IMG/VR virus record: IMGVR_UViG_3300009529_001494
Coordinates: 1-27,476 of that record
From: a virus
Reading direction: 5' to 3' (one strand)
Length of the DNA stretch: 27,476 nucleotides
Shown: in pieces, positions 3,770 through 22,339 of the stretch
Position numbering within the stretch: the first letter of the stretch is position 1
Layout of the letters: the number at the start of each line of letters is the position of its first letter
Notes under the pieces: model-generated
Databases searched by the model: none
What the model was told of the DNA's origin: nothing
What the model saw: the letters and a program-made list of their open reading frames with translations, nothing else
Program-made: the position numbers and the translations under genes

Positions 3770-4895
3770 AAGTGCTGTTGAACCTTCTGAGTACAAAACA
3801 ATTCCTGCGTTTGTCAAGGTAATTGAAGCCGAGGGTGAAGGGATTGTCGAACATTTGATCTCAGTCTTTGGAGTCCTTGACTTAGGGAAAGACATTACTC
3901 ACCCAGGTTCGTTCAAGAAAACTATCGCAGAGAGGGAGGGTTCTATTAGGGTTCTTGATAGCCATCATCGGTCATCTGCCTTGGACGCAATAGGTCTCCC
4001 TCTTAAGATTTGGGAAGCCTCTAGGGACGAGCTCCCAAAGGAGGTACTTGAGAAGTATCCTGAAGCTACTGGTGGTGTGATGGCCAAGACGCAATTTCTA
4101 ATGAACACTCCAGAAGGTAAAGGGATATTCGCTAGGATCAAAGCTGGTGCGCTTGACGAGTTCTCCTTTGCTTACGACGTGCTTGATGAGGACTTGTCTG
4201 AGGTCAAGATTGGCGGGGAAGACGTAACGGTCAGAAATCTCAGAACTATTAGGTTGTGGGAGTACAGTCCCGTTGTGTTTGGCATGAATCCTGCTGCGAC
4301 CGTCGTTAGTGCCAAGGGGACTGAAGAGAAGCCTGCGCCTGATGTTACAGAAAACACGATCCGAATTAGGGTTCGAAATCCTAAGGACTTTCAGGAGGGT
4401 TCCTTTAGAACCATCAACATTGGTGACAAAGACAACGGCATTCAAGCTGTTATTGGTCTGCTTAAGGGTAAGACTACCACAACAATTCAGTCCTACATCT
4501 TCGATAAGAAGAAGTGGACAGCTAAGAGGGCCCAAGATTGGGTTAAAGAGCATGGCAAGAAGGCCTTAAGTCTCACAAGACTTATTAGCCAAGTGCGGGA
4601 AGCGTTCTACAAAGCTTACAACTCGGAAGATTACTCAAGTAACTACTGGGTTGAGGAAGTCTTTGACGCTCATCTTATCGTCAAGTCGTACGCTGATAGG
4701 TACAGTTACTTCAAGGTCGGTTTCAAGCTTACTGATGATAAGGTTACGTTTGACCCTAGAGGTGAGTGGGTCGCTGGTGACTATGTGTTCGTCGAGCGTA
4801 ACGCAGCAACTGAGGAGAAGGAGGTTTCTATAGAAGAGTTTTTGAGGCTCGTTGATGTTGAGTTGGAACAGATCGAGATCGCACAGATCTCCTAA
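3756..4895 (+). CDS. HK97-family prohead protease with extra C-terminal domain
   Basis: 379 residues. Residues 1-~190 are an HK97-type (S78/U35) prohead serine protease: ITHPGSFKKTI near 47-57, a DSHH segment with the likely catalytic His70, and GALDEFSFAYDV with the likely nucleophile Ser137. The enzyme matures the capsid by removing the delta domain of the capsid protein encoded next door. Residues ~200-379 are an additional domain, roughly doubling the usual ~190-residue protease. It has an RVRNPKDFQEGSFRTI strand region and a FDKKKWTAKRAQDWVKEHG helix, resembling domains attached to XkdF-like prohead proteins, and may act as scaffold. A GGAGAAGGAAG stretch precedes the ATG. A 59-base gap separates it from the capsid gene. 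Confidence 0.88.
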   Translation: MKAIESAVEPSEYKTIPAFVKVIEAEGEGIVEHLISVFGVLDLGKDITHPGSFKKTIAEREGSIRVLDSHHRSSALDAIGLPLKIWEASRDELPKEVLEKYPEATGGVMAKTQFLMNTPEGKGIFARIKAGALDEFSFAYDVLDEDLSEVKIGGEDVTVRNLRTIRLWEYSPVVFGMNPAATVVSAKGTEEKPAPDVTENTIRIRVRNPKDFQEGSFRTINIGDKDNGIQAVIGLLKGKTTTTIQSYIFDKKKWTAKRAQDWVKEHGKKALSLTRLISQVREAFYKAYNSEDYSSNYWVEEVFDAHLIVKSYADRYSYFKVGFKLTDDKVTFDPRGEWVAGDYVFVERNAATEEKEVSIEEFLRLVDVELEQIEIAQIS

Positions 4896-4954
4896 GGCCG
4901 GGCCGGACCTTAAGTACCACCCACCTTACTTATTTGAGCGTTAGGAGGAACAAG

Positions 4955-6271: not shown

Positions 6272-6289
6272 CAGGGTCGTGACTGAGTA

Positions 6290-6347
6290 AAGTGGTGGCT
6301 AGGGACTATAGCCCGAAAAGTGGTTTCCCTGCCACCTGCCACCACTT
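6290..6347 (+). other. Inverted repeat / structured intercistronic RNA between capsid and HNH genes
   Basis: AAGTGGTGGC at 6290-6299 is the exact reverse complement of GCCACCACTT at 6338-6347, giving a 10-bp perfect stem that encloses 38 bases. The interior has its own pairing options, including GGG...CCC around a CTATAG palindrome at 6302-6314 and a second GTGG/CCAC pairing near 6319-6336. No U-tract follows, so it is not a classic intrinsic terminator. It may stabilise capsid mRNA, partially terminate, or keep the HNH gene from full expression. The 105-base gap it occupies shows no other gene. Confidence 0.6.
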
Positions 6348-6376
6348 AATCAGGGACGCACTAAGGGAGGTGTGAG

Positions 6377-6904
6377 ATGAGAGCGCCAAAGAAGTTCGGC
6401 GGAGGTAGGGGGACTACATACTGGGAACCTCCGGACGAGGAATGGTTAAGCCTTCACTACGTTGTTCTAGACAAATCCGTACGGCAGATTAGCCGCGAGA
6501 TTAAGGCTAGTCGGGCGGTCGTTGAACGCTGGCTGGGGGAGGGTAGGTTTCCTAGACGCACCCAGGCGGAGACTCACAGACGACACGCTAGGGCGATGAC
6601 AGGACGGGTAGGTAGTGAGAGCTCTAACTGGAAGGGTGGTAAAGGGCGGCGCTACGGACGGAAGGTGTTGCGACGTGCCGAAGTGCTTCAAGCTTGTGCC
6701 TGGTGTGGCCAAAACGGGTCCGGCCCTAGCAAACTTGAGGTGCACCACAAAGATCATAACAGTCAGAATAACATTCTGGAGAACCTTATGTACCTTTGCC
6801 AGGCGTGTCACTGGCTGGAACTGGGTCTTTGGCACCTGCGAGAGCAGGATAAGATAGATCTCATTGCTATAGGCAGCGAGATCCATGTAACCTTTAGGAG
6901 GTAG
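6377..6904 (+). CDS. Free-standing HNH homing endonuclease
   Basis: 175 residues. Residues ~32-56 form a helix-turn-helix (DKSVRQISREIKASRAVVERWL). A linker with SSNWKGGKGRRYG is typical of phage HNH enzymes. The nuclease core has Cys107/Cys110, the catalytic His123-His124 with Asp126 and His127 (VHHKDHN), Asn136 in ENL, and Cys141/Cys144-His145, so both zinc knuckles and the active site look intact. GGGAGG at 6365-6370 precedes the ATG. It interrupts the late operon between the capsid and decoration genes, and the ribosome-binding site of the following gene (AGGAGG, 6896-6901) lies in its last codons. It most likely spreads by homing into phages that lack it. Confidence 0.9.
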   Translation: MRAPKKFGGGRGTTYWEPPDEEWLSLHYVVLDKSVRQISREIKASRAVVERWLGEGRFPRRTQAETHRRHARAMTGRVGSESSNWKGGKGRRYGRKVLRRAEVLQACAWCGQNGSGPSKLEVHHKDHNSQNNILENLMYLCQACHWLELGLWHLREQDKIDLIAIGSEIHVTFRR

Positions 6905-6907
6905 AGC

Positions 6908-7363
6908 ATGTACACGGAACAATTTACAGAGGTCCATGATGTGTTAGCGGCGATTGCTCCTACTACGGCCAATGGTGCAGTAGGGGCTCACGCTAGTGGG
7001 TACGTAGACATGGCCGATTACCATCGAGCGTTCTGCTGGCTCCATGTCGGAACGCCAGGTGGTGCCAGCACTATTGATGTGGCGATAACACAGGCCACTA
7101 GTTCTGCTGGCGCAGGTGCGAAAGCGTTGACGACCCCTGCAGGTGGCTCCAAGTCGCCGACGCAGATCGTCGCCGCCGACGCTGGTGTGTATGTCGGTAT
7201 CGAGATCCGTAGTGCAGAACTGGATGCTACGAACGGTTTCCACTTTATCCAGGCCACTGTCACTGTGGGAACCAGCACGTACACGTATTCCCTGGTCATC
7301 TTCGGCACCGTCAGTAGGTATGAAGCTGTCGGCGTCACAGACTTCGCGCAAGTCGTGGCGTAG
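6908..7363 (+). CDS. Putative capsid decoration / head structural protein
   Basis: 151 residues, rich in Ala, Thr, Gly and Val, and predicted mostly beta. Segments such as DYHRAFCWLHVGTPGGASTIDVAITQAT and GVYVGIEIRSAELDATNGFHFIQATVTVG fit small phage structural proteins that sit just after the capsid gene and decorate the head. It has a strong AGGAGG site at 6896-6901, embedded in the end of the HNH gene, and is closed by a strong hairpin at 7386-7423. Both suit an abundant virion component. The function is inferred from composition and position; no catalytic motif is visible. A minor head or neck protein is the alternative. Confidence 0.6.
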   Translation: MYTEQFTEVHDVLAAIAPTTANGAVGAHASGYVDMADYHRAFCWLHVGTPGGASTIDVAITQATSSAGAGAKALTTPAGGSKSPTQIVAADAGVYVGIEIRSAELDATNGFHFIQATVTVGTSTYTYSLVIFGTVSRYEAVGVTDFAQVVA

Positions 7364-7385
7364 TCAGAGATTTCCTCCTTTGGAC

Positions 7386-7423
7386 GAGATAGGGGAGTAG
7401 TTGGGGACCTACTCCCCTATCTC
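7386..7423 (+). terminator. 15-bp perfect hairpin, probable terminator or mRNA-stabilising stem
   Basis: GAGATAGGGGAGTAG (7386-7400) pairs perfectly with CTACTCCCCTATCTC (7409-7423) around an 8-base loop. No U-run follows (AGGGAATGCG), so it may be a factor-dependent or partial terminator, or a stem protecting the 3' end of the head-gene mRNA. It lies exactly between the head genes and the carbohydrate cassette that starts at 7450. Confidence 0.7.
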
Positions 7424-7449
7424 AGGGAATGCGCTTCTAGGAGTGTACA

Positions 7450-8124
7450 ATGCCCTGGATTACACTGAAGGTTGCTAAGCAGATTAGGCGGGGTGGAGTT
7501 GCCCGAATGTACTATCCTGGTGACTCTGTAGAGGTCGGACGACAAACTGCGTTAGATTGGGTTCTTAACGATCTTGCTGAAGACCCGTTTGGGCAGGTTG
7601 GCACTCCTCTGCTAGAAAGCGAACTCGTAGAAAGAGGGCATGAGTATGGTGTCCGAGTCAGAAGCGAGAAAGGTAATGCTGAAGTCACCCCCTTAGGGCA
7701 AGTGGCACAACAACTTTCCTATGGTGAGCCGGCAATACCTTACAAGTACACGTTGATCTGGCGGCCTGGAGTTAGGGTCAACCCTAAGATGGCGCGGTAC
7801 GGCTTCCTTAGAATCTTGGAAACTGATAGAGAGGTAGGGACTTCTTGGGAGATGGCAGCAAGTCTTGTAAGTCTGAGTGTCCTTGCCGATAGTGTTGGTA
7901 GCGAAGAGGATCAAGCGAAGACGTTAAAGCTCGTTGGTGACCTGCGACTTCCAGTGTACGAATCTCGGCTGGTGTGGGCTCGGAACTGCCCCTCTGCACA
8001 AAAGGTGGTTGCTGCATGGGCTGCGGAGCTCGAAGACGGTGCGGGTGAGTATCACGCTTTTCTACGAGCTCTGTATTCAAATAGGACTTTGCTTTGCACG
8101 ATACCTAGCAGCTGGCAGGGGTAG
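7450..8124 (+). CDS. Degenerate glycosyltransferase-like protein with phage-type N-terminal domain
   Basis: 224 residues. Residues 1-~45 have a YYPGDSVEVGRQTALDWV pattern seen in small phage structural modules. The rest can be aligned by eye with the glycosyltransferase encoded next door. YTLIWRPGVRV (100-110) corresponds to YTLLLDADTRV, LVWARNCPSAQKVVAAW (174-190) to VMYFQKTCRVRKLFEAW, and AFLRALYS (203-210) to AFLRALRY. The metal-binding DxD of the neighbour is replaced by Arg-Pro-Gly, and its NTG and DQG motifs are absent, so this copy is probably catalytically inactive. It may be a structural or regulatory partner. AGGAG at 7439-7443 supports the ATG. The next gene starts two bases after its stop. 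Confidence 0.55.
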   Translation: MPWITLKVAKQIRRGGVARMYYPGDSVEVGRQTALDWVLNDLAEDPFGQVGTPLLESELVERGHEYGVRVRSEKGNAEVTPLGQVAQQLSYGEPAIPYKYTLIWRPGVRVNPKMARYGFLRILETDREVGTSWEMAASLVSLSVLADSVGSEEDQAKTLKLVGDLRLPVYESRLVWARNCPSAQKVVAAWAAELEDGAGEYHAFLRALYSNRTLLCTIPSSWQG

Positions 8125-8125
8125 T

Positions 8126-8737
8126 ATGGCGGGAAGTTTAGGAGCAATCTGGATTGCCTTCGGAATGAACGCTCAAACCGAGGCAGCGAAGAGCAAGAAA
8201 TCATTTCTGGAATATAATCGTTTTCCGACTAGAGTGCTCACAGACGCGTCCTTTCCAACACCAAAAGATCTTACGACTGACCAGAAAGCACACTGGGCTA
8301 AAGTCAACGCGGATCTTTGGTCGCCTTATGACTATACCCTATTACTAGATGCAGATACTAGGGTTAAGGGAAACCTTTCATTAGGGTTTAAGATTCTTCG
8401 AGATGGGTGGGAGATTGTACTCATACCAAGTATACCTCCATTACCAGGGATCTTTCTTTGGACCCTAAGTGGAACTGAGAAGAGAGGAACTCTAGAAGAA
8501 CTTGGAACCTGGAAACATATGATGCTTAATACAGGAGTCATGTACTTCCAGAAGACTTGTCGAGTTCGAAAGCTTTTCGAAGCTTGGAGGTCAGAGTGGC
8601 TTCGGTACAAAGATAGGGATCAGGGAGCGTTTCTTAGGGCCCTGCGATACTGCCCAGTGAATCTGTGGTTGTTAGGGTCCCCCTTCAACAGTGCAGAGGG
8701 TGATGTGGTTGAACACTTGTTTGGAAGAGCAAGATGA
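8126..8737 (+). CDS. GT-A fold glycosyltransferase (nucleotide-diphospho-sugar transferase)
   Basis: 203 residues from the ATG at 8126. The frame is open further upstream, but that extension lies wholly inside the preceding gene and lacks family features. The GT-A signature is clear: AIWIAFG at the N-terminus, YTLLLDADTRV with Asp75-x-Asp77 for the metal and nucleotide sugar, LNTGVMYF at 134-141, and RDQGAFLRAL at 164-173. These match nucleotide-diphospho-sugar transferases. Donor and acceptor cannot be predicted. It overlaps the next gene by 4 bases (ATGA). The adjacent upstream gene looks like a decayed relative with an added N-terminal domain. Confidence 0.78.
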   Translation: MAGSLGAIWIAFGMNAQTEAAKSKKSFLEYNRFPTRVLTDASFPTPKDLTTDQKAHWAKVNADLWSPYDYTLLLDADTRVKGNLSLGFKILRDGWEIVLIPSIPPLPGIFLWTLSGTEKRGTLEELGTWKHMMLNTGVMYFQKTCRVRKLFEAWRSEWLRYKDRDQGAFLRALRYCPVNLWLLGSPFNSAEGDVVEHLFGRAR

Positions 8738-9444
8738 AGGTCAAAAATCCAGGTCTGAGTTACTATGTCAGCCGCATCGAAAGTGGTTATCCATTTAGTT
8801 TTGTTCGCTTTGGCGATGGGGAGTGGACAGCTGGAATCTTGCGTGACAGAAATCGTACGACAAGTGGATCCCAAGCGTTAGACATTCCAGAGCTTCAGAA
8901 AGACATGCGTCGCGTCTTTACAAACTGTCACGTAGCGAGAAACTACATTCCTTCGCTAAGACCGACATCACTAAAACCAGAAGTCGAAACTTGGCTGGAA
9001 GGAAACGTTCCTAAGGGAGTTGTCTGGCACGACTGCCGCGTGTTCTACCTAAACAGCGCTCACGGCAAGTTGTTCCCTTTCATCGACGCGCTACAGCACC
9101 TTGACATTCCTATAGTTCTTGTAGGCCCGGTAAGGTTGTGGACCCTAAGATTTTCTGGTCTCTTACCAGAAGCCAAGTTGATCGTCACTCCGGATGTTGA
9201 CTGCTATGTATTGAAGGGTCAACTTATTGAGCAGATCCTTAACATTAAACAACCAGCTTGTATTATGTTTACTGCTGGACCTGCAGCGAAAGTGATGATC
9301 CATCAACTCTACCCAGTTATAGGTCATCACTCCTATCTACTGGATCTTGGTAGTCTTTGGGATGTGTATGTAGGTCATGTGACACGAAAGTATCATAAGA
9401 CTATGACACTTGAGACGATAGAAAAGAACTCGTTAGGGCTATGA
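8734..9444 (+). CDS. GT-D fold glycosyltransferase-like protein (DUF1792-like)
   Basis: 236 residues. FSFVRFGDGEW at 21-31 contains the Asp-Gly-Glu motif of the GT-D/DUF1792 family, where the acidic pair binds metal and UDP-sugar. The C-terminal half has ACIMFTAGPAAKVMIHQLY followed by SYLLDLGSLWDVY, matching the family's Rossmann-like half and terminal Asp-Leu-Gly segment. Characterised members add glucose to protein-linked glycans on streptococcal serine-rich adhesins; the sugar and acceptor here are unknown. It overlaps both neighbours by 4 bases, so the four glycosyltransferases from 8126 to 10771 are probably translated in a coupled manner. Confidence 0.75.
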   Translation: MKVKNPGLSYYVSRIESGYPFSFVRFGDGEWTAGILRDRNRTTSGSQALDIPELQKDMRRVFTNCHVARNYIPSLRPTSLKPEVETWLEGNVPKGVVWHDCRVFYLNSAHGKLFPFIDALQHLDIPIVLVGPVRLWTLRFSGLLPEAKLIVTPDVDCYVLKGQLIEQILNIKQPACIMFTAGPAAKVMIHQLYPVIGHHSYLLDLGSLWDVYVGHVTRKYHKTMTLETIEKNSLGL

Positions 9445-10037
9445 GAGGCATTGCTATCGTTATCCCTACACTAGACAAGGAAAAGGGAGAAAGCGCTGGC
9501 AGTTTAGCACTTGCAACGTCGAGGTGTGACGTTCCTGTAAGGGTCATAGTGTCACATGACGAGAAAGGTCAGGGGTTCACGAAAACTGTAAACACAGGGA
9601 TGCGGCAAGCGCCTGATGAGGATATCTGTTTACTCAATGACGACATCCTAGAGTTCCAGTATGGGTGGCTTGAGATTCTGAGACAGATCTTGTACATTGA
9701 TCCTAGGTATGGGATAGTCGGGCCTTCAGGTAGAAGCGCCTCAGCTCCAGCTAGTAAGGGGGCACCAGGGCAGTTTGGAAGTCAAGAGGTAGGTCAACTC
9801 TCCTTCTGGTGCGTCCTAGTAAAACGAGAAGTGATTGACGAGGTAGGTCTTCTAGACGAAGTGTTCATACATTATTGCTCGGACACTTGGTACTGTCGAG
9901 TTGCACGCGAGAAGAACTGGAAGTGTGTCTGGGCAAAAGCTGTTTATCTTAAACACAGGCATCATGGGTCAGGAATTCCTGGGGAGTGGAAGTTGCACGA
10001 CAGGAAGATTTATGCAGAGAGACGTGGAACATTATGA
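9441..10037 (+). CDS. GT2 family glycosyltransferase
   Basis: 198 residues, a compact GT-A domain. It begins with GIAIVIPTLDK, has the GFTKTVNTGM segment at 45-54 and LLNDDI with the metal-binding Asp67/Asp68, then SFWCVLVKREVIDEVGLLDE and DTWYCRVAREKNWKC, the usual GT2 acceptor-side motifs. It lacks membrane segments, so it is a cytoplasmic enzyme. The sugar is not predictable. The stop overlaps the start of the DUF616-like gene by 4 bases at 10034. Confidence 0.82.
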   Translation: MRGIAIVIPTLDKEKGESAGSLALATSRCDVPVRVIVSHDEKGQGFTKTVNTGMRQAPDEDICLLNDDILEFQYGWLEILRQILYIDPRYGIVGPSGRSASAPASKGAPGQFGSQEVGQLSFWCVLVKREVIDEVGLLDEVFIHYCSDTWYCRVAREKNWKCVWAKAVYLKHRHHGSGIPGEWKLHDRKIYAERRGTL

Positions 10038-10771
10038 ACATCGTAGTCTACACTGCAATTTTTGGCGACAGTGACCATTTGTGGTCGCCACAACCACTTG
10101 CTGTAGGAGGGTGTAAGCACGTTTGTTTTAGCGAAAAACCACGTCGTCAGGTAGGGCTCTGGGAGAACGAGCGCAAGATGAAACCTGGCACTGGCCAGAT
10201 GAGTCCACCACCAGTTTGGGAAGTTCGGATCGTACCGACGCATAAGGATAATCGCACTTCCGCTAGACGTTGCAAGGTATTATCGCACAGATATCTACCA
10301 GACGCAGATGTAACAATCTGGGTAGATGGAAACGTTCGGCTACTTGAGACACCGCAGGAGATGGTTCGTAAGTGGCTTACTGGTAGCTTTTTAACAACCT
10401 TCACACATCCATTTAGAGATTGCCTATACGATGAGGCAACATTTTGCCTGAAGGTTCCAAGAGGAGAGATCTACAGGAAGGAACTGGCCCAGCAAACTGC
10501 GGCATATCAAAGGGCCGGAATGCCTAGGCACTGGGGTTTAGCTGAAACACGTTGCGTGATGCGCGTTAACTCGCCACAAATCACGAAGATGAATGAGCTC
10601 TGGTGGAGCGAGATCCAAGCCCATAGCCCAAGGGACCAAGTTAGTCTTCCATATGTGTGCTGGAAGTTAGGCATAAAGTGGGGCGAACTTCCTGGAAGAA
10701 TCAGGATCTTTAACAGCCCAGGGGGTGCTACCGGACCCTTTTTCTGCATCAAACACGGACATGATCTATGA
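10034..10771 (+). CDS. DUF616-like glycosyltransferase
   Basis: 245 residues from the ATG at 10034, chosen because it gives the ATGA overlap used repeatedly here and because family similarity begins at MNIVVYTAIFGDSDHLW; an upstream ATG at 9986 lies inside the GT2 gene. Features of the DUF616 (TOD1/MUCI70-like) family: YTAIFGD, CFSE, ARRCKVLSHRYLP, TIWVDGN at 94-100, HPFRDCLYDEA at 125-135, and WWSEIQAHSPRDQVSLPYVCWK near the end. WVDGN stands where a DxD would be. The family is linked to glycan synthesis; the substrate is unknown here. It overlaps the synthetase-like gene by 4 bases. Confidence 0.8.
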   Translation: MNIVVYTAIFGDSDHLWSPQPLAVGGCKHVCFSEKPRRQVGLWENERKMKPGTGQMSPPPVWEVRIVPTHKDNRTSARRCKVLSHRYLPDADVTIWVDGNVRLLETPQEMVRKWLTGSFLTTFTHPFRDCLYDEATFCLKVPRGEIYRKELAQQTAAYQRAGMPRHWGLAETRCVMRVNSPQITKMNELWWSEIQAHSPRDQVSLPYVCWKLGIKWGELPGRIRIFNSPGGATGPFFCIKHGHDL

Positions 10772-11526
10772 AGGAAGTAACACGTTTTAATCCGACAGCT
10801 AACGGGCCGTTACACATCGGCCATGCGTATACAGCGCTGGTCAATGAGCATTTGGCACACTCAACTGGCGGGCACTTCGTGCTGCGCTTTGATGACAACA
10901 CTAGATACTGGAGGCAGAAGCTGGCCGGAGCCGCCCCTGTGTCTAAAATTGCTCAAGGGCAGCTTGATGACCTGCACTGGTTAGGGATAGAACCAGATCA
11001 GATTGTCTATCAGACGGATGTTGAAACAGGTGTTAAGCGTTTTTTAGCACAGTCAACAAAGTGGCAGCACGTTGTTGATCACTTTAGTCACACTGAGTGG
11101 GATCCAGTGGTTATCTCTGATCCTCCGATTAATGCTTTTGGTCTGCTAAGTTACATAACCGCAGAAAAGGTAGTTCTGGATTACTGGGAAAGGGTGACAA
11201 CCTTAGTTCGAGGGTTAGAGCTATTAAGTGAACATGCGCTATACTTGTACTTCTGTGCCTTGCTTGGGTTTGATCCTCCACGAGGTGTATACATTCCTAG
11301 ACTTATGGCGTATGAGGGCGAGGATCTTACCGAGGTTAGTAAGACTGAAGGTAACTGGAAGATCCGAGACTTACGAGACAGAGGGATTAACCCTGCGATG
11401 GTCCTAGATACACTGCGTGCATCCTGTCTAGTACGTCCCAGTGAGGGCTGGGGACTAGACAATCTGAAGTTTGCACCAAAGCTTCCAAGAGAGATACTAT
11501 GTTCTTACGAGCAGACGAACATCTGA
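10768..11526 (+). CDS. Short glutamyl-tRNA synthetase-like protein (catalytic domain only)
   Basis: 252 residues. It begins with the class I synthetase HIGH motif in FNPTANGPLHIGHAYTALVN (His16-His19), then HFVLRFDDNTRY, the GluRS/GlnRS equivalent of LRxEDTD. The second signature is divergent: LTEVSKTEGNW, with Ser191-Lys192 kept but the first Lys changed to Glu189. The protein ends soon after, with no anticodon-binding domain and no Cys cluster like that of GluQRS (the enzyme that glutamylates queuosine in tRNA-Asp). It can probably still bind ATP and an acidic amino acid. Genuine tRNA charging is doubtful. Its place inside a glycosyltransferase operon suggests an amino-acid transfer to a small molecule, glycan or RNA, which is inference. 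Confidence 0.75.
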   Translation: MKEVTRFNPTANGPLHIGHAYTALVNEHLAHSTGGHFVLRFDDNTRYWRQKLAGAAPVSKIAQGQLDDLHWLGIEPDQIVYQTDVETGVKRFLAQSTKWQHVVDHFSHTEWDPVVISDPPINAFGLLSYITAEKVVLDYWERVTTLVRGLELLSEHALYLYFCALLGFDPPRGVYIPRLMAYEGEDLTEVSKTEGNWKIRDLRDRGINPAMVLDTLRASCLVRPSEGWGLDNLKFAPKLPREILCSYEQTNI

Positions 11527-12518
11527 TAGTCGTCAACTTACCGTCGTGGCTTGTCTCGCCGTTCGGTCAGTGTTACTCTTTGACGGATGATGAACTGAGG
11601 CAATTACGTGACGTAGGTATCAGGGTTGTAATAAACTACGCTTACTGGCGCGTTATTGAAGCTGAGGGGTATGGTTATGTAGATGCAGCTATCGAACAAC
11701 TACAGAAATTAGGGATGCGCTGTATTTTAGGGTCTTACATTGAGCCTCCACAGGATCTCCCAGAACAATACTACTGTAGATACCAGAATGGTTCGCCTGG
11801 TCTTAGCGAACAGGGTTTCAAAGCGTTGTCTCTCTGGAACCTAGATGCAAGGGCTGCGATGCTTAAGCACTACGAGGACTTGATAGCCCGCTACGGCGGT
11901 CCTGATGTATTAGTCATGCACAGTGGCATTGACATGGGAGAGATAGTGTTGCCGCATACGCCCAGTTTCTATGATGATTCGGCGCTAGTTTCCCACGGTC
12001 TTGAGGTAGGAGGAGTACCGAACATCGCTAGGGGAAAGACACAAGCTTGGTTACGGCGTGGAGTTCTGGAGCACTTTCTAACAATTGATGAGCTTCTACT
12101 CACTCAGCACGATGAGGTTTGGCAAGCGTTACACCCCTGGCTAGATTGGGCTCGTAGACCAAGAGGCGCGAATGGAAACTTCGCACAGGAGGACATCCTA
12201 AGAACCGAGTTTGAAAGATGGCCTAATGCTTCTCGAACTCTGTTACAGTACACGTACTTTCATCACTACAAGCCTGTACGTAACAATGTCCCTTACAAGA
12301 AGCTCATCGACTTGTGGAAGCGTAACTATAACCCAAGGATCATAGTGGAGGCCAACTATTGTAAAGGTCTCAAGTCTACAACGCCAGAAGCAATCTCAAA
12401 GGGGTTCGCAGGACAGATAGTCGGAGTCGTGCACCCATGGTCTAAGACAGACCATCTGGAGCAATGGCAAGTTGAAGCGATTGCTAAGTCAGTCCGTCGT
12501 TGGGACGGCGAAGAATAG
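11499..12518 (+). CDS. TIM-barrel glycoside hydrolase-like protein
   Basis: 339 residues with no signal peptide. The pattern of an alternating beta/alpha barrel is visible: IRVVINYAYWRVIEAEGYGYVDAAIEQLQKLGMRCILGSYIEPP resembles the first strands of clan GH-A/GH14/GH42 barrels, and PDVLVMHSGIDMGEIVLP carries Glu148 at a possible acid/base position. IIVEANYCKGL carries Glu284, a possible nucleophile. The last strand is GQIVGVVHPWSK. I cannot name a GH family or substrate, and catalysis is unproven. It overlaps the synthetase-like gene by 28 bases and is followed 17 bases later by the sugar-binding lipoprotein, so it links the glycosyltransferase and transport halves of the cassette. Confidence 0.55.
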   Translation: MFLRADEHLIVVNLPSWLVSPFGQCYSLTDDELRQLRDVGIRVVINYAYWRVIEAEGYGYVDAAIEQLQKLGMRCILGSYIEPPQDLPEQYYCRYQNGSPGLSEQGFKALSLWNLDARAAMLKHYEDLIARYGGPDVLVMHSGIDMGEIVLPHTPSFYDDSALVSHGLEVGGVPNIARGKTQAWLRRGVLEHFLTIDELLLTQHDEVWQALHPWLDWARRPRGANGNFAQEDILRTEFERWPNASRTLLQYTYFHHYKPVRNNVPYKKLIDLWKRNYNPRIIVEANYCKGLKSTTPEAISKGFAGQIVGVVHPWSKTDHLEQWQVEAIAKSVRRWDGEE

Positions 12519-12535: not shown

Positions 12536-13951
12536 GTGAGTAGGAAGTTAAGTAGGCGTGAATTCCTGCTAAGCGCCGCAGCTGTTGGAGCAGGGACATT
12601 GGCCGCGTGTGCTCCTAAGGTTATTGAGAAGGAGGTCGTGGTCGAGAAACTCGTTGAGGTCGAAGTCGTGCGGGTCGCAGGACAACCTGCGTGGACGCCA
12701 CCTGACCTGAGCGGACAAGAGTATTTGATTTGGGGATTGCAGTACGATCCTCACGTGGAGACTTACCATCGACTAGCAGAACGGTTTGAGAAACACACAG
12801 GTGCTAAAGCTACTGTGGAACCTCTGGGCTGGCCTATTGAGAACCACATAATCACAGGGATGGCGGCGGGTCTAGTAGCCGACGTTGTCTGCATCGTTGG
12901 CAAGCAGATCTTCCCCCTGGTTGCCGAGGAAGCGGTTCTGGCAGTAGATGAGTTGGTGTATGACGCAATCGGTTGCGATGTAGATACCTGGTTCGGTCCT
13001 GTCGGACTTCAAGCGTACCAGTACTTCGGAAAGACTTGGGGTGTACCAACTGAGGGGAACAATGTCAGTGGCTTCGTCAACGGACCTCTGGATCTGATTG
13101 AAGAGGAAGGCGTAGAGGATCTGTGGCCTCCTTTAAACGGCGAGGACGGGTTTAAGGGTTTTGAGAACATGTGGGAGCTTGCAGATGCTCTGCAGAAAGT
13201 AGACAACGCTGGCAACGTGGCCCGCTGGGGCCTAAGTAGTGAAGGTTGGCACAACAGGCACCTGTTCGGCATAATGCGCACGCTAGGACGCGACTGGTGG
13301 GACCAGGAGTCTCATACGTTCCATCTTGATAGCGATGAAGCGTATGAGGCGATGCAGTTGTTAGCCGTGGTTCCGATCTTTGAGCTGGGGATTGAGACGC
13401 ATCTCGAGGAAGCGGCTACACGTTCGCAGTTTGCTGGGAAAGTTGCACTTGCTTGTGGCAATGCTACACAGCCGGGGACGGCCTTGACGGAAGCTGACGG
13501 CATGCGAGTCGACAATGCGGTGTATCCTTCTGCAATACCTGGACGTGAGGCACTATTTGTCGGTGAGGGCGGATGGGGCTTCATCGTACCTGCACAGGCG
13601 AAGAACCCAGACGTGGCAATCGAGTTTCTTAAGTTTATGACTACCTATGAGGGGCAGAAGGAGTACGCTCGCATCTACGGTGGTAACACGTCTGCCTGCA
13701 ACGCTGTTAACGATGATGCGGAGCTGTACCCAGAAGGGACCTTCATCGGTGATGCGATGCGTAGGGCTGGTGTTGCCCAGAAGCGGACGATCTACTACGG
13801 TAGCGAGTTCGGTAATCCTTCCGAGATGGAAGAGATAACCTCGTCGGCAGTCGAGAAAGTTCGCATTGGGGAGGCAACAACTGAAGAAGCCCTGGCAGAG
13901 GCTCAGGAGCTACTTGAGGAGATGCTAAAACGCTGGAACGAGGGGGCGTAA
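12536..13951 (+). CDS. ABC transporter sugar-binding lipoprotein (Tat-exported)
   Basis: 471 residues from a GTG at 12536, fixed by AAAGGAG at 12519-12525; the longer TTG frame from 12500 has no such site and would bury the signal. The N-terminus is a Tat signal (SRREFLL, Arg7-Arg8) with a lipobox LAAC, Cys25 being the lipidated residue. A linker IEKEVVVEKLVEVEVV follows, characteristic of Chloroflexota binding proteins. The mature part is a family 1-type extracellular solute-binding protein: YHRLAERFEKHTGAKATVEPL, KTWGVPTEGN, GEGGWGFIVPAQAKNPDVAIEFLKFMTTYEGQ. It would sit on the outer face of the membrane and deliver a sugar to the permeases. Ligand unknown; the downstream alpha-galactosidase suggests an alpha-galactoside. 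Confidence 0.93.
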   Translation: MSRKLSRREFLLSAAAVGAGTLAACAPKVIEKEVVVEKLVEVEVVRVAGQPAWTPPDLSGQEYLIWGLQYDPHVETYHRLAERFEKHTGAKATVEPLGWPIENHIITGMAAGLVADVVCIVGKQIFPLVAEEAVLAVDELVYDAIGCDVDTWFGPVGLQAYQYFGKTWGVPTEGNNVSGFVNGPLDLIEEEGVEDLWPPLNGEDGFKGFENMWELADALQKVDNAGNVARWGLSSEGWHNRHLFGIMRTLGRDWWDQESHTFHLDSDEAYEAMQLLAVVPIFELGIETHLEEAATRSQFAGKVALACGNATQPGTALTEADGMRVDNAVYPSAIPGREALFVGEGGWGFIVPAQAKNPDVAIEFLKFMTTYEGQKEYARIYGGNTSACNAVNDDAELYPEGTFIGDAMRRAGVAQKRTIYYGSEFGNPSEMEEITSSAVEKVRIGEATTEEALAEAQELLEEMLKRWNEGA

Positions 13952-13953
13952 CA

Positions 13954-14012
13954 GCTGGCACAGGCAGGCGGCGGAAGCCGGGTACAGACCACTCAACCCT
14001 GCCTGTGCTAGC
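13954..14012 (+). promoter_or_regulatory. Long intercistronic hairpin between binding-protein and permease genes
   Basis: Bases 13954-13968 pair with 13998-14012 over 15 bp with a single G-U wobble. The 29-base loop contains a nested mini-hairpin, CGGC-GGAA-GCCG (13969-13980), a 4-bp stem with a GGAA (GNRA-type) tetraloop. It starts two bases after the stop codon of the binding-protein gene. In many bacterial importers such stems protect the binding-protein mRNA and lower permease expression; that role is inferred here. Confidence 0.7.
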
Positions 14013-14028
14013 CACTCCCTTGAAGGCA

Positions 14029-14913
14029 ATGAGGACCCTACGAAACCCTCAGTTCCAGTTCGGGTTTGTGGTACTTGCACTTGTCCTAACTTGGTATGTG
14101 CTATTTAGTTTCCGACCCGTTGTGCTGGGCTTCAAGATGGCGGTGACTGATTACGATCTGCTAAATCCAGCAGATAGTAAGCTCGTGGGGTTGCAACACT
14201 TCGAGACGATCTTTAACAAGTACAAACTGTTCTGGGTTTCAGTACGTAATACCATAACCTATGCGGTTATGGTGAATCTAGGAACAGTGCCCATTGCTCT
14301 AGTCTTTGCGTATTGTCTCGCAAAGGTAGCCAATGGTCGTAGCTGGTATCAGTGGGCACTGTTTCTTCCAGTCGTAGTTTCAATGGCGGCAGTGGCTCTA
14401 CTGTTTCGATTCCTGATGGATCCAGGTCTAGGTATCTTCAACCACGCACTTAAGGCGGCGGGCTTACCGCCAAGTAGATGGCTGACAGGGCCGAGGTCAG
14501 CAATGTATTCAATTGTGATCGTAGCGTTGTGGAAGGGCTTAGGCGGAAACATTGTAATCCTAACAGCAGGGCTGTTGAACGTTCCTCGGGAGCTGTATGA
14601 CGTTGCCAAGGTGGATGGTGCAAGTTCCTGGAAGACGTTCTGGTATGTTACGTTGCCCTTGTTAAGTCACGTACTTAAGTTGGTTATGATACTGGTCACT
14701 ATCGGATCTCTGCAGGTATACACTTCAGCAATGATCCTGACCAGAGGAGGCCCTGGTCGTGCAACGTATATGATTAGCCAGTTTGTTGTAGAGGAGGCAT
14801 TTACCCACCTAAGGTTTGGGCTTGCCAGTAGTTCAGCGTTTGTTCTTTTTCTGGCAATCCTAGTGATCACATTGATGCAGTTGCGGCTCACACGCGTTGG
14901 CTGGGAATACTGA
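14029..14913 (+). CDS. ABC sugar permease, UgpA/MalF type
   Basis: 294 residues from the ATG at 14029. An in-frame GTG at 14005 would place the start inside the hairpin stem and has no ribosome-binding site, so I prefer the ATG, though its own GAAGG is very close. The protein has about six membrane helices, from FGFVVLALVLTWYVLF to the final AFVLFLAILVITLMQL. The EAA loop that docks the ATPase is at ~187-212 (RELYDVAKVDGASSWKTFW followed by LPLL). VDGASSWKTFWYVTLPLL is close to consensus, so the coupling surface looks intact. It would pair with the next gene's product; no ATPase gene is in the window. Confidence 0.92.
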   Translation: MRTLRNPQFQFGFVVLALVLTWYVLFSFRPVVLGFKMAVTDYDLLNPADSKLVGLQHFETIFNKYKLFWVSVRNTITYAVMVNLGTVPIALVFAYCLAKVANGRSWYQWALFLPVVVSMAAVALLFRFLMDPGLGIFNHALKAAGLPPSRWLTGPRSAMYSIVIVALWKGLGGNIVILTAGLLNVPRELYDVAKVDGASSWKTFWYVTLPLLSHVLKLVMILVTIGSLQVYTSAMILTRGGPGRATYMISQFVVEEAFTHLRFGLASSSAFVLFLAILVITLMQLRLTRVGWEY

Positions 14914-14914
14914 G

Positions 14915-15733
14915 ATGAAGCGACTTACAAGTCAGGGTATAACGCATCTCGTGTTGCTCATCGGGGCGTTTTTAGCAGTGACGCCCTTCGTATGGATGGC
15001 CTTCGCGTCAGTTAAGACTTTCACCGAGGTTGTTAGTTCTAGGCGATTACTACCCACGGTTTGGACCTTGCAGAACTACAGGGATATTTTAAGTCGAGTC
15101 GGGTTCCTACGTGCATTCTATAACAGTGCACTGGTGGCTGTACCGGCTACAGTCTCAGTCGTTTTTGGTTCGGCCGCTATGGGTTATGTTCTCGCAAAGT
15201 ATAGATTCTGGGGTAGAGAGGTTCTATTTAGAGTTCTCCTCTCGACAATGATGGTTCCGTTCACTGTTGTTATCATTCCGCTTTTTCTGACAATGCGAGA
15301 TCTGGAACTTACGAATAAGCTGGGAGGTGTTCTGGTTACAAGTTTGTGCAGCACGTTTGGCATCTTCCTAATGAGGCAGACGATTGAGTCGATACCTAAC
15401 GACTACATTGACGCAGCGAGAATTGATGGTGCGTCAGAGGTCTGGATCTTTAGTCAAGTTATCATTCCACTATCGCGCTCTGCCATCGCCACCCTTGCTG
15501 TGTTCATATTTCTAGGGAATTGGGACAACTATATGTGGCCATCAGTTCTGCTAAAGAGACCGAGTCAACATACGCTGCCTGTGGTCATCGCTGGTATGCA
15601 GAGCTTGTTCGTTGAGAGGTATCACCTCTGGTCGGCAGGTTCAATGTTGACTGTAATACCAGTAATGATCCTGTTTACACTTGCACAGAAGCAGTTTATG
15701 AGAGGGCTGGCACTAGCCGGTTTGAAAGGTTAG
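14915..15733 (+). CDS. ABC sugar permease, UgpE/MalG type
   Basis: 272 residues from the ATG at 14915, just after the stop of the first permease. An in-frame TTG at 14897 is possible but would add only six residues and overlap that gene. The N-terminus HLVLLIGAFLAVTPFVWMAFASVK is the usual first helix of MalG-type subunits. The EAA loop at ~163-185 (DYIDAARIDGASEVWIFSQV, then IIPL) is well conserved, followed by FLGNWDNYMWPSVLL, another family hallmark. About six membrane helices are predicted. It forms the heterodimeric channel with the upstream permease. The GH36 gene begins two bases after its stop. Confidence 0.93.
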   Translation: MKRLTSQGITHLVLLIGAFLAVTPFVWMAFASVKTFTEVVSSRRLLPTVWTLQNYRDILSRVGFLRAFYNSALVAVPATVSVVFGSAAMGYVLAKYRFWGREVLFRVLLSTMMVPFTVVIIPLFLTMRDLELTNKLGGVLVTSLCSTFGIFLMRQTIESIPNDYIDAARIDGASEVWIFSQVIIPLSRSAIATLAVFIFLGNWDNYMWPSVLLKRPSQHTLPVVIAGMQSLFVERYHLWSAGSMLTVIPVMILFTLAQKQFMRGLALAGLKG

Positions 15734-15735
15734 GA

Positions 15736-17673
15736 ATGTTTGCTTCTAAGACTTTGTTACCTGTTCGTGAAGAGATACCCTTCTCCTTTGTGTACGGACG
15801 CAAACACTCGCAACAGTTGTTGCCTAGATGGAAGTTTCTTGCTGATGAACTTGATGGGGTGAAGATCCTTACGTGGTCTGATCCGAAGACAGGGCTAAAG
15901 GTCTGTGCAGATGTAGTTGAGTATCCTTATACTGGGGCTGTTAAGTGGGTACTTAAGTTCATAAACACAGGGCCGGAGCCGACGCCCATACTTGAGGACG
16001 TGCAGGCACTAGATATTAAGGTACCTCAGGTTGGAGATCAGAGTGTTGTGCTGCATCGGCTTAAAGGAGACTCATTTAGGGTTGATGACTGGTTCCCTAT
16101 CAAGAAGCATATGCCGCGTATGACATCTCTTAGGTTTGGACCAGATCAGGGACGTCCGGCTGACGGTGCTTGTCCATTCTTTAACCTGCAGTGGGAAGGT
16201 GGCGGGGCCATTACTGCAATTGGTTGGACAGGTCAGTGGCAAGCTAAGGTAATTCAGCAGTGCTTCCCTTGGACACAGACGCAGGTAGGAATGGAACACT
16301 TACACTTGTCGCTTCTACCTGGGGAGAGTATTCGCAGCCCACTTATTATGCAACTGTACTGGGAAGGTGATGACACTGAGTTATCTTATAACCTGTTTAG
16401 GCAGACGATGCTTAAATACGTCCTTCCACGCGTAGATGGTGAGGTGGTCGTACCTCCGATAGCACATCTTAGCACAGCTGCTTATGAGTGGAATAGTAGC
16501 ACTGAGGAAAACGTAATGGAACATCTTGAAGCTGTTAAGGATCTTGGCTTTGAGGTGTTCTGGCTAGACGCGTACCATACATTAGGAGGTTTTCCTGGGG
16601 GAGTTGGAAACTGGTGGTTGCCAGCGACCTCATGTCTCCCAGTTGATCGTTTTCCTAGGGGTTTGAAGTGCATCTCAGATGCGGTGCATGAAGCTGGCAT
16701 GAAGTGGCTCTTGTGGTTCGAGCCAGAGCGCGTTGCTCCAGGAACGCACTTAGACGTTGAGCATCCTGAGTGGTTAATGACGGCAGACGGGCAGAAGAAC
16801 AAGCTACTAAACCTAGGAATTCCTAGTGCTAGAGAGTATATAACGAGTTTTCTGATTGGAGCTGTAGAAGAACATGGAATGGACTGGTTGCGCCCTGACT
16901 GTAACATTGATCCCTTACCATTCTGGCGGGCTGAAGATAAGAAGGATTCTAACCGTGTTGGTATAGCTGAGATTCGATATGTTGAGGGGTTGTACCAGAT
17001 GTTGGATGACATTCTTGCTGCATACCCGCACCTGCGTATTGATAATAGTGTTAGTGGCGGTAGACGTATCGACCTAGAGATGTGCTCCAGATCGACGCCC
17101 TTGTGGAGAACCGATAGAGTGATGATGCCGCAGGAAGTGGATAAGGATTTCGACCAAGGTGCGCTACAGAACCAAATGATTACTTCTGCACTAAGCCGGT
17201 ATGTTCCGTTCAGTACGACAGGTCAGATGGGTGAGCAACCCCACTGGTTCCGCAGCGGTTTTAACGCTGGTATAGCATTCTGTGAGGACTGCAGACCTGA
17301 ACACTACCCGCGTGACGTCCTTAAAGCTGGGATTGAAGAAGGTAAACGTATTCGGAAGTTTTACTCTGGAAACTTTTACGTGTTGAGTGAGATCTCTCTT
17401 GACCCTGCAGATTGGTGTGTGATGCAGTATCACAGACCTGAAGAACAGGACGGGATTATCTTAGCGTTTAGACGCGACAAAGCGGATGCTGTTAGTTTCG
17501 ACTGCCGTCCACGCGAAGTTGATCCGAATGTGTGGTATGAGTTGTCCTACTCATACAGTTACGAACGTGTAGATCCGATTGACTCTGTGCCGGGTGTCTG
17601 GTTTCGAGACTTCCGTTTGTACGTGCTTGACTGTCCAGGATCTGTTCTGGTAGAGTATCGTGTTGTTAGATGA
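15736..17673 (+). CDS. GH36 family alpha-galactosidase-like glycosidase
   Basis: 645 residues, slightly short for the ~700-residue family. Residues 1-~235 form the N-terminal beta-sandwich, ~240-560 the TIM barrel, and the rest a C-terminal beta domain. Barrel landmarks: FEVFWLDAY (273-280), WLLWFEPERV (324-333), WLRPDCNID with the probable nucleophile Asp388, and NSVSGGRRIDLEM with the probable acid/base Asp446. There is no signal peptide, so it acts in the cytoplasm on imported sugar. The nucleophile context (RPDCN) differs from the common KxDxN, so specificity might be alpha-galactoside or alpha-N-acetylgalactosaminide. It follows the permease by two bases, strongly suggesting the importer supplies its substrate. 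It overlaps the next gene by 14 bases. Confidence 0.88.
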   Translation: MFASKTLLPVREEIPFSFVYGRKHSQQLLPRWKFLADELDGVKILTWSDPKTGLKVCADVVEYPYTGAVKWVLKFINTGPEPTPILEDVQALDIKVPQVGDQSVVLHRLKGDSFRVDDWFPIKKHMPRMTSLRFGPDQGRPADGACPFFNLQWEGGGAITAIGWTGQWQAKVIQQCFPWTQTQVGMEHLHLSLLPGESIRSPLIMQLYWEGDDTELSYNLFRQTMLKYVLPRVDGEVVVPPIAHLSTAAYEWNSSTEENVMEHLEAVKDLGFEVFWLDAYHTLGGFPGGVGNWWLPATSCLPVDRFPRGLKCISDAVHEAGMKWLLWFEPERVAPGTHLDVEHPEWLMTADGQKNKLLNLGIPSAREYITSFLIGAVEEHGMDWLRPDCNIDPLPFWRAEDKKDSNRVGIAEIRYVEGLYQMLDDILAAYPHLRIDNSVSGGRRIDLEMCSRSTPLWRTDRVMMPQEVDKDFDQGALQNQMITSALSRYVPFSTTGQMGEQPHWFRSGFNAGIAFCEDCRPEHYPRDVLKAGIEEGKRIRKFYSGNFYVLSEISLDPADWCVMQYHRPEEQDGIILAFRRDKADAVSFDCRPREVDPNVWYELSYSYSYERVDPIDSVPGVWFRDFRLYVLDCPGSVLVEYRVVR

Positions 17674-18373
17674 AGTCACAGTTGTCATACCGAACTTCAA
17701 GATGCCTGGTCTACTTAAGGGTTTAGTAGACAGATTATTGAAGTTATACCCAGACATACGTCTGCTACTAATTGATAATGGATCACGTGACAGCTCCACT
17801 GCTTACATTAGCAGTATGGCTGATAGCTTTTACAACATCAAAGTGATACTTAACCAGGTAAACGCTGGGCATGGGCCAGCTATGCATCAAGGTATGGGCC
17901 TCTGTGAGACGCGACTCGTATGCCTGATGGACTCGGATTGCATAGTTCGTCGGCCTGGGGGTTTAGAGTTACTAGCCGAACCTTTCTCGGATAAGAGTGT
18001 TTATGCTACAGGAGAGATGGTACTTGTTGATGCTGGAGGTAACACAAAGGATGAAGGGGAACCATACATACTTCCATCGCGTATGATGATCCTTTGTGAG
18101 AGATACTTTGGCTTGGAACCTTTCAACCATCACGGTGCTCCTGCGGTTCTAAATATCAGGTCGGCGGACGCTAGGGGTTTTAGATTAGTGAATCTTCCTG
18201 ACATTGATGACTACATTCATCATCCAGGTCAGGGATTGGAGAAGGGTCCAGTACACTTGACTTACGGAATACCAGGTTGGCATCACCGTAAGTTCTACTT
18301 GCCAGAAAGCGCACCATCTGCAGCCGAAAGGTTGCAAAAGGCAAATCCAGTAGTACTTGGTTCGTGGAGGTAA
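17660..18373 (+). CDS. GT2 family glycosyltransferase
   Basis: 237 residues from a GTG at 17660 that overlaps the GH36 gene by 14 bases; no strong ribosome-binding site is visible, so translation is probably coupled. EVTVVIPNFKMPGLLKGLV opens a GT2 domain, IDNGSRD (38-44) binds the nucleotide, NAGHGPAMHQGM (68-79) is the usual acceptor-side glycine motif, and LMDSDCIV (89-96) holds the DxD. It has no membrane helices. The sugar is unknown. Its last codons contain GGAGG (18366-18370), which is the ribosome-binding site of the head-tail adaptor gene, joining the cassette directly to the structural genes. Confidence 0.85.
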   Translation: MLLDEVTVVIPNFKMPGLLKGLVDRLLKLYPDIRLLLIDNGSRDSSTAYISSMADSFYNIKVILNQVNAGHGPAMHQGMGLCETRLVCLMDSDCIVRRPGGLELLAEPFSDKSVYATGEMVLVDAGGNTKDEGEPYILPSRMMILCERYFGLEPFNHHGAPAVLNIRSADARGFRLVNLPDIDDYIHHPGQGLEKGPVHLTYGIPGWHHRKFYLPESAPSAAERLQKANPVVLGSWR

Positions 18374-18375
18374 CA

Positions 18376-19041
18376 ATGGCGGCTTATGCGACGAGGGCAG
18401 AACTTCAAATAAGAATTCAAATCTTGTCTGTGCCTTCGGCAGACCAGATAGCTATGATGGAAGCGCTGCTGGATGCTTCATCTCGTGCCATAGACAGAAT
18501 CTGCGGAGTTGACGATGATGCGTTCCAGGCTACAGGAGCTGATGCAATCAAGTACCTTCCTGCATATGGTGAGACATACTTACGCATTCCTCAGTGTGTT
18601 ACTATAACTACAGTTGCTGTTAAAGCGAGCGTAAGCGCAACCACTTACACTGATTGGGCTACACCTACGACGCCAATGGCAGGTGACGGAGACTGGATAC
18701 CCTGCAGGGGGAACCCTGAACATCCTGAATATGGTGTGACGCCTTACGATCTCCTAGTAATAGACCTAAACGGCGTATATTCCAGCTTCCTAGATAGCGA
18801 TGGCCTCCCTGTGATTAAGATTACTGCGGCCTGGGGTACTCGGTCAGCCGTCCCCGCAGATATACGAGAGGCATGCCTGATGCAAGCAGCGAAGTGGTAC
18901 AAGAAGTTTCAGGGTGCTCAAGCGTCTGATCTTGGAACGGACGAGTTTGGAAGGATCAGATACGCTCGTACTATGGATTCTGGCGTGAAGCAGATCCTTG
19001 TAGATGGGCGCTGGATATTGCCTCTGTATGGAGGTGCGTAA
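18376..19041 (+). CDS. Head-tail adaptor (gp6-like connector)
   Basis: 221 residues from the ATG at 18376, chosen because GGAGG lies at 18366-18370, five bases upstream; a GTG at 18364 in frame is less likely. The start YATRAELQIRIQI and the segment EALLDASSRAIDRICG are typical of HK97 gp6/phi-like head-tail connectors, as is the late PADIREACLMQAAKWYKKFQGA helix followed by a short SGVKQILVDGRWILP tail. The protein would form the ring below the portal that closes the filled head and receives the tail. Its separation from the capsid genes by the carbohydrate block is unusual. Confidence 0.82.
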   Translation: MAAYATRAELQIRIQILSVPSADQIAMMEALLDASSRAIDRICGVDDDAFQATGADAIKYLPAYGETYLRIPQCVTITTVAVKASVSATTYTDWATPTTPMAGDGDWIPCRGNPEHPEYGVTPYDLLVIDLNGVYSSFLDSDGLPVIKITAAWGTRSAVPADIREACLMQAAKWYKKFQGAQASDLGTDEFGRIRYARTMDSGVKQILVDGRWILPLYGGA

Positions 19042-21396: not shown

Positions 21397-21584
21397 GTAA
21401 CCGAGTGGCCGTCTACCTATGGACACAGAGAGGAGACCCTCCTTGGGAGTTAACGTCCTATGTTCTCAGAAGAGATATCTATCACTGCTTGCCTGAAGAC
21501 TTAGAGGGGGCAGACTGGATAGGTATCTCTTCAGACATAGCTGTACGTAATGCGCTCGCAAGAGTGGAAAGAGTATCCAGGTGA
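21076..21584 (+). CDS. Tail assembly chaperone, frameshifted (GT-like) fusion
   Basis: Predicted product of about 169 residues: the short chaperone up to the A AAA AAC site, then the -1 frame from 21393 to the TGA at 21582-21584. The extension contains VAVYLWTQRGDPPWEL, YVLRRDIYHCLPEDL and NALARVERV, a plausible T-domain of normal length. It has no start of its own. In lambda-like phages the GT form recruits the tape measure to the tail tube subunits. The stop overlaps the GTG start of the HNH gene, showing that the endonuclease has been fitted exactly behind the chaperone rather than disrupting it. Confidence 0.82.
21387..21393 (+). promoter_or_regulatory. -1 programmed ribosomal frameshift site (A AAA AAC)
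   Basis: The heptamer A AAA AAC is in the correct X XXY YYZ phase: Ala codon GCA ends at 21387, then AAA and AAC, followed directly by the TAA stop of the short chaperone. Slippage by -1 opens a frame that continues for 63 codons to a TGA at 21582. This arrangement is conserved in siphovirus tail chaperones. Confidence 0.85.
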
Positions 21585-22339
21585 CAAGAAGAAGGTGGAC
21601 TGCTGAGATGGATGCCCTCCTAGGGACGATGCCTGACAAGGTTGCAGCTGCGCAGCTAGGGATAAGTAGGAGTGCTGCTAAGGGGCGTAGATACGGATTA
21701 GGTATCCCTCCTTGGCAGTCTTCATCCCCTAGGGGGAGATGGACACTTGAGGTAGACACGCTACTTGGTACTGACACGGACAGAGCTGTAGGAGAGAGAG
21801 TAGGTATTTCTACGACATCTATAACTTGGCGTAGGAGACAGTTAGGAGTTCCGTCATTTGGCCCTACTGGAAGGCCTATAAAGTGGACGCCTGAACTGGA
21901 TGCGCTGCTGGGAGAGTTAACGGATCGTGAGGTAGGAGACGAGCTGGTAATCTCAAATCAGGCTGTTAGGAATCGCAGACACGAGCTAGGGATCTCTTCC
22001 TGGCGTAGTCAACAACCAGCTAAAGAGAGTACTAGATGGCAGCAGATAAGCGCATTACCCTACACTCACACCTGGGAAGAATGGGAGTTTGCTTGTGAGT
22101 GGTTTGACAACAGATGCGCCTACTGCGATGTGACGTCTTTCTTAACGCAGGACCACCTAGTCCCAGTTAGTGGGGGAGGTCCTTGGACGGTTCTGAATAT
22201 CATACCTGCCTGCGTGAGCTGCAATAGCTCAAAAGGTAGCCGCCAAGCACATCTCTGGATCTACGAGAAGTTTGGAATGGAAAAGGGCAGTCAGATAGTG
22301 AAGCGCATCGTAGCGTATCTCACGAAGGTATCTAAGTAA
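21581..22339 (+). CDS. HNH endonuclease with three N-terminal helix-turn-helix repeats
   Basis: 252 residues from a GTG at 21581 overlapping the chaperone-extension stop (GTGA). Three ~40-residue Myb/HTH-like repeats start with RRRWTAEMDALLG (4), RGRWTLEVDTLLG (51) and PIKWTPELDALLG (99), each ending in RR..LGI/V[PS]. They should read a long DNA target. The nuclease core has Cys179/Cys182, Asp191-His192 (QDHLVPVSGGG), Asn206, and Cys211/Cys214-Asn215, so it looks active. An alternative ATG at 21608 would cut into the first repeat. It lies between chaperone and tape measure, and its stop overlaps the tape measure start (TAATG). A homing endonuclease is most likely. Confidence 0.88.
   Translation: MTRRRWTAEMDALLGTMPDKVAAAQLGISRSAAKGRRYGLGIPPWQSSSPRGRWTLEVDTLLGTDTDRAVGERVGISTTSITWRRRQLGVPSFGPTGRPIKWTPELDALLGELTDREVGDELVISNQAVRNRRHELGISSWRSQQPAKESTRWQQISALPYTHTWEEWEFACEWFDNRCAYCDVTSFLTQDHLVPVSGGGPWTVLNIIPACVSCNSSKGSRQAHLWIYEKFGMEKGSQIVKRIVAYLTKVSK

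Follow-up and report, generated by a model that had tools for sequence, protein, structure and literature searches.

A sugar-importer and GH36-like glycosidase gene cassette in the capsid-neck interval of an uncultured tailed phage

Genes for a solute-binding lipoprotein, two different permeases and a GH36-like glycosidase lie next to one another between the head and neck genes of an uncultured tailed phage. On balance, and by a modest degree, we favor the reading that this cassette is real auxiliary-metabolism cargo, in which a captured CUT1-like importer that would work with a host ATPase is carried, together with a cytosolic glycosidase, in a variable slot of the phage genome.

Results

The Phage Record and Its Structural Gene Frame

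The window analyzed is the whole of IMG/VR record IMGVR_UViG_3300009529_001494 (27,476 bases), which is linear and probably a fragment, and the genes and features from capsid to adaptor lie on its + strand. It comes from an uncultured tailed phage and carries both a head module and a neck/tail module. Pfam and PHROG profiles place TerL, portal, prohead protease and HK97-type capsid genes to the left of the slot that holds the cassette, and head-tail adaptor (phrog_442), neck (phrog_5), major tail protein and tape measure genes to its right. The left flank of the slot is the major capsid gene (4934-6271; PF05065, E 8e-44; phrog_10), and the right flank is the adaptor gene (18364-19041), for which an alignment of eight relatives supports ATG 18376 as the probable start. 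About 12.1 kb of other genes, on a single strand throughout, separate capsid from adaptor, and the cassette has phage hallmark genes on both sides within the same contig, as expected of auxiliary cargo.

Two HNH endonucleases of the free-standing homing type also occur amid the structural genes (6377-6904 and 21581-22339), the first of which is found in only ~10 relatives. Beside the capsid gene, a 151-aa protein (6908-7363; phrog_28483) that is kept in 70 of the related loci described below is likely a capsid decoration protein; since glycosyltransferase-like genes follow shortly after it, the virions of this phage group may be glycosylated.

A CUT1-like Importer with No ATPase Recognized in the Record

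The first cassette gene (12536-13951) starts with GTG after an AAAGGAG site and encodes a solute-binding lipoprotein of the SBP_bac_1 family (PF01547, E 3e-14). Its N-terminus, VSRKLSRREFLLSAAAVGAGTLAAC, contains a twin-arginine motif, within a Tat-type signal, and a lipobox, and the protein gives a weak NgcE match in NCBIfam. In GC3 this gene (0.57) nearly equals the capsid gene (0.58) and exceeds most others, and its codon score against the capsid gene (0.70) is among the higher ones; the near-equal GC3 values would fit high expression. At the boundary with the permease 1 gene, RNA folding predicts an intercistronic hairpin with a 15-bp outer stem (13954-14012; −40.9 kcal/mol, z −2.9), and none of 200 shuffles was as stable. 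With hairpins of the malE-malF type, the binding protein is made in excess over the permease, and by analogy the phage hairpin would raise binding-protein output above that of the permease.

Permease 1 (14005-14913) is MalF/UgpA/AlgM1-like (PF00528, E 3.5e-10; AlgM1 in the PDB, E 7e-21) and matches the NCBIfam UgpA model (E 1.6e-27) with a score that falls short of its cut-off. Because the start at 14005 sits in the 3′ arm of the hairpin, ATG 14029 is an alternative and perhaps the true start. Permease 2 (14897-15733) is MalG/UgpE/AlgM2/SugB-like (PF00528, E 1.9e-19; AlgM2, E 1.6e-28, and SugB, E 1.9e-26, in the PDB), and its true start is probably ATG 14915. The EAA loop, through which a permease contacts the ATPase, is unbroken in both translations, and the nearest solved structures to the two permeases are AlgM1/AlgM2, SugA/SugB and MalF/MalG. 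All four Pfam matches of the cassette (SBP_bac_1, BPD_transp_1 twice and Melibiase) exceed the curated cut-offs. The cassette thus supplies both the SBP_bac_1 lipoprotein, with its lipobox, and the two different permeases of a CUT1-like importer, although every score of the importer falls well under the NCBIfam equivalog cut-offs, so that no named transporter is assigned. Together, these results bear out the first-pass annotation, which had described a Tat-type sugar-binding lipoprotein, two permeases with intact EAA loops and a GH36-like enzyme between the head and neck genes: Pfam recovers each of them in an intact frame.

No ABC ATPase was recognized with Pfam among the annotated genes of the 27,476-base linear fragment, as had been claimed at the outset. 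The accompanying proposal, that an ATPase would be borrowed from the host, agrees with a known arrangement for such importers: most sugar clusters in Streptomyces are without an ATPase and share MsiK (PMC6167110), and MsmK of Streptococcus suis serves several carbohydrates (PMC4519317). Since sharing of this kind is established, the lack of an ATPase gene in the record does not on its own indicate decay. Within the cassette, matches to promoter and terminator consensus sequences were no commoner than in shuffles. The set resembles CUT1-type importers (AlgM1M2, SugAB, MalFG and UgpAE, and the MsiK-dependent DasABC and NgcEFG) in its binding lipoprotein and two different EAA-loop permeases, and Streptomyces CUT1 clusters in that the ATPase would be encoded outside the cluster, but it differs from them in sitting in a structural operon. 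Two virus-derived PHROG families without an annotated function, phrog_1577 and phrog_20211, match both or one of the permeases, and permease-like genes would therefore have entered phage or prophage databases earlier.

A GH36-like Glycosidase without a Signal Peptide

The last cassette gene (15736-17673) encodes a GH36-like glycosidase (PF02065, E 5.4e-23, 82 bits versus a cut-off of 27; GH36 alpha-galactosidases in the PDB, E 6e-22; profile E 1.5e-43). Asp388 and Asp460 occupy the catalytic positions (nucleophile and acid/base); they are invariant across four PVC homologues and align with Asp residues of 2xn0 that we take to be the catalytic ones. As judged by eye, the phage protein has no signal peptide, and the enzyme would therefore act on the imported sugar in the cytoplasm. 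The first-pass annotation had called it a cytoplasmic, alpha-galactosidase-like GH36 enzyme, of which the GH36 family holds up. The name alpha-galactosidase, however, is too specific, because what is matched is the GH36 family as a whole, which includes other specificities, and the predicted assignment is best kept at the family level; a weak NCBIfam match is to beta-L-arabinopyranosidase. The domain and both catalytic Asp positions are shared with the alpha-galactosidases AgaA/AgaB and LaMel36A as well as with the PVC homologues, whereas the phage enzyme belongs to a subgroup with SGGRR and RxDxN variants. The predicted structure model (pLDDT 55) was too poor for a fold search.

The closest GH36 relatives found come from Verrucomicrobia and Pirellulales (48-51% identity) and have signal-peptide-like leaders typical of secreted enzymes, unlike the phage copy. 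PVC bacteria were considered as the direct source of the importer and rejected, as their best binding protein is 25% identical and the retrieved flanks of their GH36 genes contain no importer. Nor are they supported as the host, the planctomycete capsid matches being distant (34% at best) and without glycosyltransferase neighbors. A Chloroflexota host is plausible in view of the leader of the binding protein and its KEVVVEK-type linker, which we read as Chloroflexota-like.

Other Genes in the Slot

The unique cargo extends past the four-gene cassette and includes 10768-12518 and 17660-18373. The latter is a family 2 glycosyltransferase gene (PF00535, E 6e-18), which overlaps the GH36 gene by 14 bases and whose 3′ end holds the GGAGG site of the adaptor gene. 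Upstream of the cassette, a 339-aa protein (11499-12518) found no match in Pfam, PHROG or NCBIfam, so that its family is unknown; by eye it is possibly a TIM-barrel enzyme, and its single-sequence structure model (pLDDT 35) was too poor for a fold search. The gene before it (10768-11526; PF00749, E 1.7e-23, and NCBIfam) encodes a truncated GluRS/GluQRS-like catalytic domain of 252 aa, with PLHIGH and VSKTEG motifs, that is shorter than a normal synthetase, unusual for a phage and adjoined by glycosyltransferases. On the capsid side lies a glycan-modification block (7450-10771), in which a 224-aa gene is followed by glycosyltransferase-like genes and which comparison with relatives shows to be partly common to them. 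It includes a 236-aa protein (8734-9444) with FVRFGDGE near its N-terminus, which by eye is like a GT-D type glycosyltransferase. The position of this gene in the slot differs among relatives, indicating that the order of the cargo is shuffled.

The Capsid-Neck Interval in Related Phages

Scanning IMG/VR with the capsid and adaptor yielded a set of 141 related viral loci that totals 1.51 Mb and includes some contigs twice. Their gene order is capsid, 151-aa protein, 224-aa protein, glycosyltransferase-like gene, a variable stretch, adaptor and neck. In the 22 distinct contigs that span it, the capsid-neck slot measures 0.5-8.6 kb, as against 12.1 kb in this phage, and it holds mainly methyltransferases and glycosyltransferases, as well as epimerases, sulfotransferases, radical SAM proteins and a DegT aminotransferase. 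In one related locus without the cassette (L006), the glycosyltransferase-like gene ends at 7236 and the adaptor is at 7399. These contents show that phages of this group use the stretch between capsid and neck as a general slot for cargo, which normally consists of glycan-modifying genes.

In the 141 loci, tblastn (E up to 1e-3) detected no homologue of the GluRS-like, 339-aa, binding-protein, permease 1, permease 2, GH36 or family 2 glycosyltransferase gene. Furthermore, the BPD_transp_1 domain is absent from all 75 distinct whole related records (2.16 Mb), and the ABC_tran domain from the 34 of these that were searched for it, many related records being fragments in which a missing gene is not necessarily missing from the virus. 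Control genomes gave matches in both searches. A search of viral databases with the cassette proteins, which the first-pass annotation had proposed, was run on IMG/VR with the binding protein, permease 2, the GH36 protein (as a single sequence and as a five-sequence profile) and the 339-aa gene, and found no relatives, although short-pattern scans can miss distant ones. Matches to the permeases and the GH36 protein in phage collections fall mostly on short unannotated records of multi-contig "phages," plus Salmonella genome records, and most of them are probably host DNA. Among plasmids, similar binding proteins were limited to four distant matches.

The cassette is thus not conserved among related phages. 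Conservation would speak for maintenance without being strictly necessary for auxiliary cargo, and its absence counts against the auxiliary-cargo reading, leaving selection for these genes in phages conjectural. Such a one-off among 141 loci and 75 whole records would suit a recent hitchhiker, in which a piece of a host sugar operon was captured by illegitimate recombination, brings no benefit and will be lost. The bacterial operon order and the hairpin that are still visible point in the same direction, as does the missing ATPase, which would be expected from a partial capture or from a bacterial cluster with a shared ATPase. However, the four frames are intact, the catalytic residues and EAA loops are kept, and the cassette is tied by tight translational overlaps to phage cargo on both sides; its composition is near that of the phage as well, though DNA from a compositionally similar host would look no different. 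We regard a hitchhiker as unlikely, while allowing it an appreciable chance. The close packing had been taken in the first-pass annotation to show that the phage maintains these genes, and here it went too far: packing and composition argue for a real insertion, yet none of the relatives has the cassette, and a single occurrence is equally well explained by a capture that is recent and perhaps transient.

The setting of the cassette raises a further alternative, that import and hydrolysis yield a rare monosaccharide for the glycosyltransferases of the slot and so supply virion or host-surface glycosylation. The slot of the relatives is dominated by glycosyltransferases, methyltransferases, epimerases and aminotransferases, and the GH36 gene is itself overlapped by a glycosyltransferase gene. 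However, no sugar kinase or nucleotidyltransferase was recognized in the window, and the same glycosyltransferases occur in relatives without an importer, leaving this role a slim prospect.

Junctions and Composition of the Insertion

The genes between 8734 and 18373 meet in overlaps or very short gaps, with an ATGA overlap at 10768, a 28-base overlap at 11499, a 17-base gap containing AAAGGAG before GTG 12536, 53 bases between the binding-protein and permease 1 genes, and the 14-base overlap at 17660. In dinucleotide composition, the cassette lies at a distance of d* = 57 from its own flanks, within the range across other segments of this contig (23-85), compared with a median of 177 for equal-sized pieces of 114 related phage loci and 172-257 for PVC bacterial DNA. 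The tetranucleotide correlation between cassette and flanks (0.76) is slightly under the range of such segments, 0.78-0.87. The donor was possibly a host similar in composition to the phage. Repeats that a mobile element might have left at the flanks were looked for, and only chance-like matches turned up.

A contig from another assembly (L002; IMGVR 3300009529_003744) is identical to the window over 3-10037 and ends there, within the glycosyltransferase genes and before the unique cargo; because it stops at 10037, it neither confirms nor contradicts the cassette, and its end possibly reflects a branch in the assembly where strains differ in cargo. This contig end, the presence of the cassette in a single record and the absence of its genes from relatives could all be accounted for if bacterial DNA had been joined to phage DNA during assembly. 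Such a chimera would need two joins, each of which kept the strand, gene overlaps of 4 to 28 bases and ribosome-binding sites, and would have to combine flanks from one phage group with a cassette equal to them in composition; we give it little credence. The first-pass annotation had named misassembly among the findings that would overturn its proposal. Examination of junctions, composition and flanks instead indicates that the insertion in the phage looks genuine and that a chimera with unrelated DNA is unlikely, given the tight junctions, the composition matching the flanks and the derivation of both flanks from one phage group.

Discussion

Under the auxiliary-cargo reading, the variable capsid-neck slot would have taken up a bacterial carbohydrate-import operon comprising a lipoprotein, two CUT1-like permeases of the oligosaccharide type and a cytosolic GH36-like glycosidase. 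The cassette would be transcribed together with the late structural genes, with the hairpin presumably leaving the binding protein in excess over the permeases, and for their ATPase the permeases would rely on a multi-substrate MsiK/MsmK/UgpC-type protein of the host. An imported alpha-linked sugar could then be cut in the cytoplasm and feed the infected cell. More tentatively, and with somewhat less than even confidence, we propose that, within its late (virion) program, the phage equips the host membrane with a sugar importer of its own, borrows the host ATPase and has the sugar hydrolyzed in the cytoplasm; the product would either power the making of virions or go to the glycosyltransferases that decorate the particle.

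Phage lipoproteins that block superinfection are known, and the codon use of the binding-protein gene is capsid-like, but a surface binding protein acting in superinfection exclusion or receptor masking, with the other genes having merely come along, is very improbable, as the two permease genes and the enzyme gene are intact as well and nothing links this binding protein to exclusion.

If the auxiliary-cargo reading is true, the phage would change the diet of its host late in infection, through an ATPase-less import route and a catabolic enzyme encoded in the structural operon. Furthermore, it would become testable whether phage-encoded permeases can borrow the shared ATPase of a host. In the open-access library searched, no paper was found that describes a carbohydrate ABC importer and its enzyme encoded together among virion genes. 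Phage-borne uptake genes are exemplified by pstS of cyanophages, and the nutrient-uptake genes of phages are usually for single subunits such as PstS. ABC genes have been described in soil phages (PMC10746233), an alpha-galactosidase in Gilliamella prophages (PMC10259446) and ExbB plus GH127 in Lentisphaerae phages (PMC11361711). Like all these cases, cyanophage pstS included, the cassette consists of phage-borne genes for uptake or sugar degradation that derive from a host. However, those cases involve single subunits, transporter genes that are largely of the efflux type, or enzymes on their own, whereas in the phage described here the binding protein, both permeases and the enzyme stand together between the head and neck genes.
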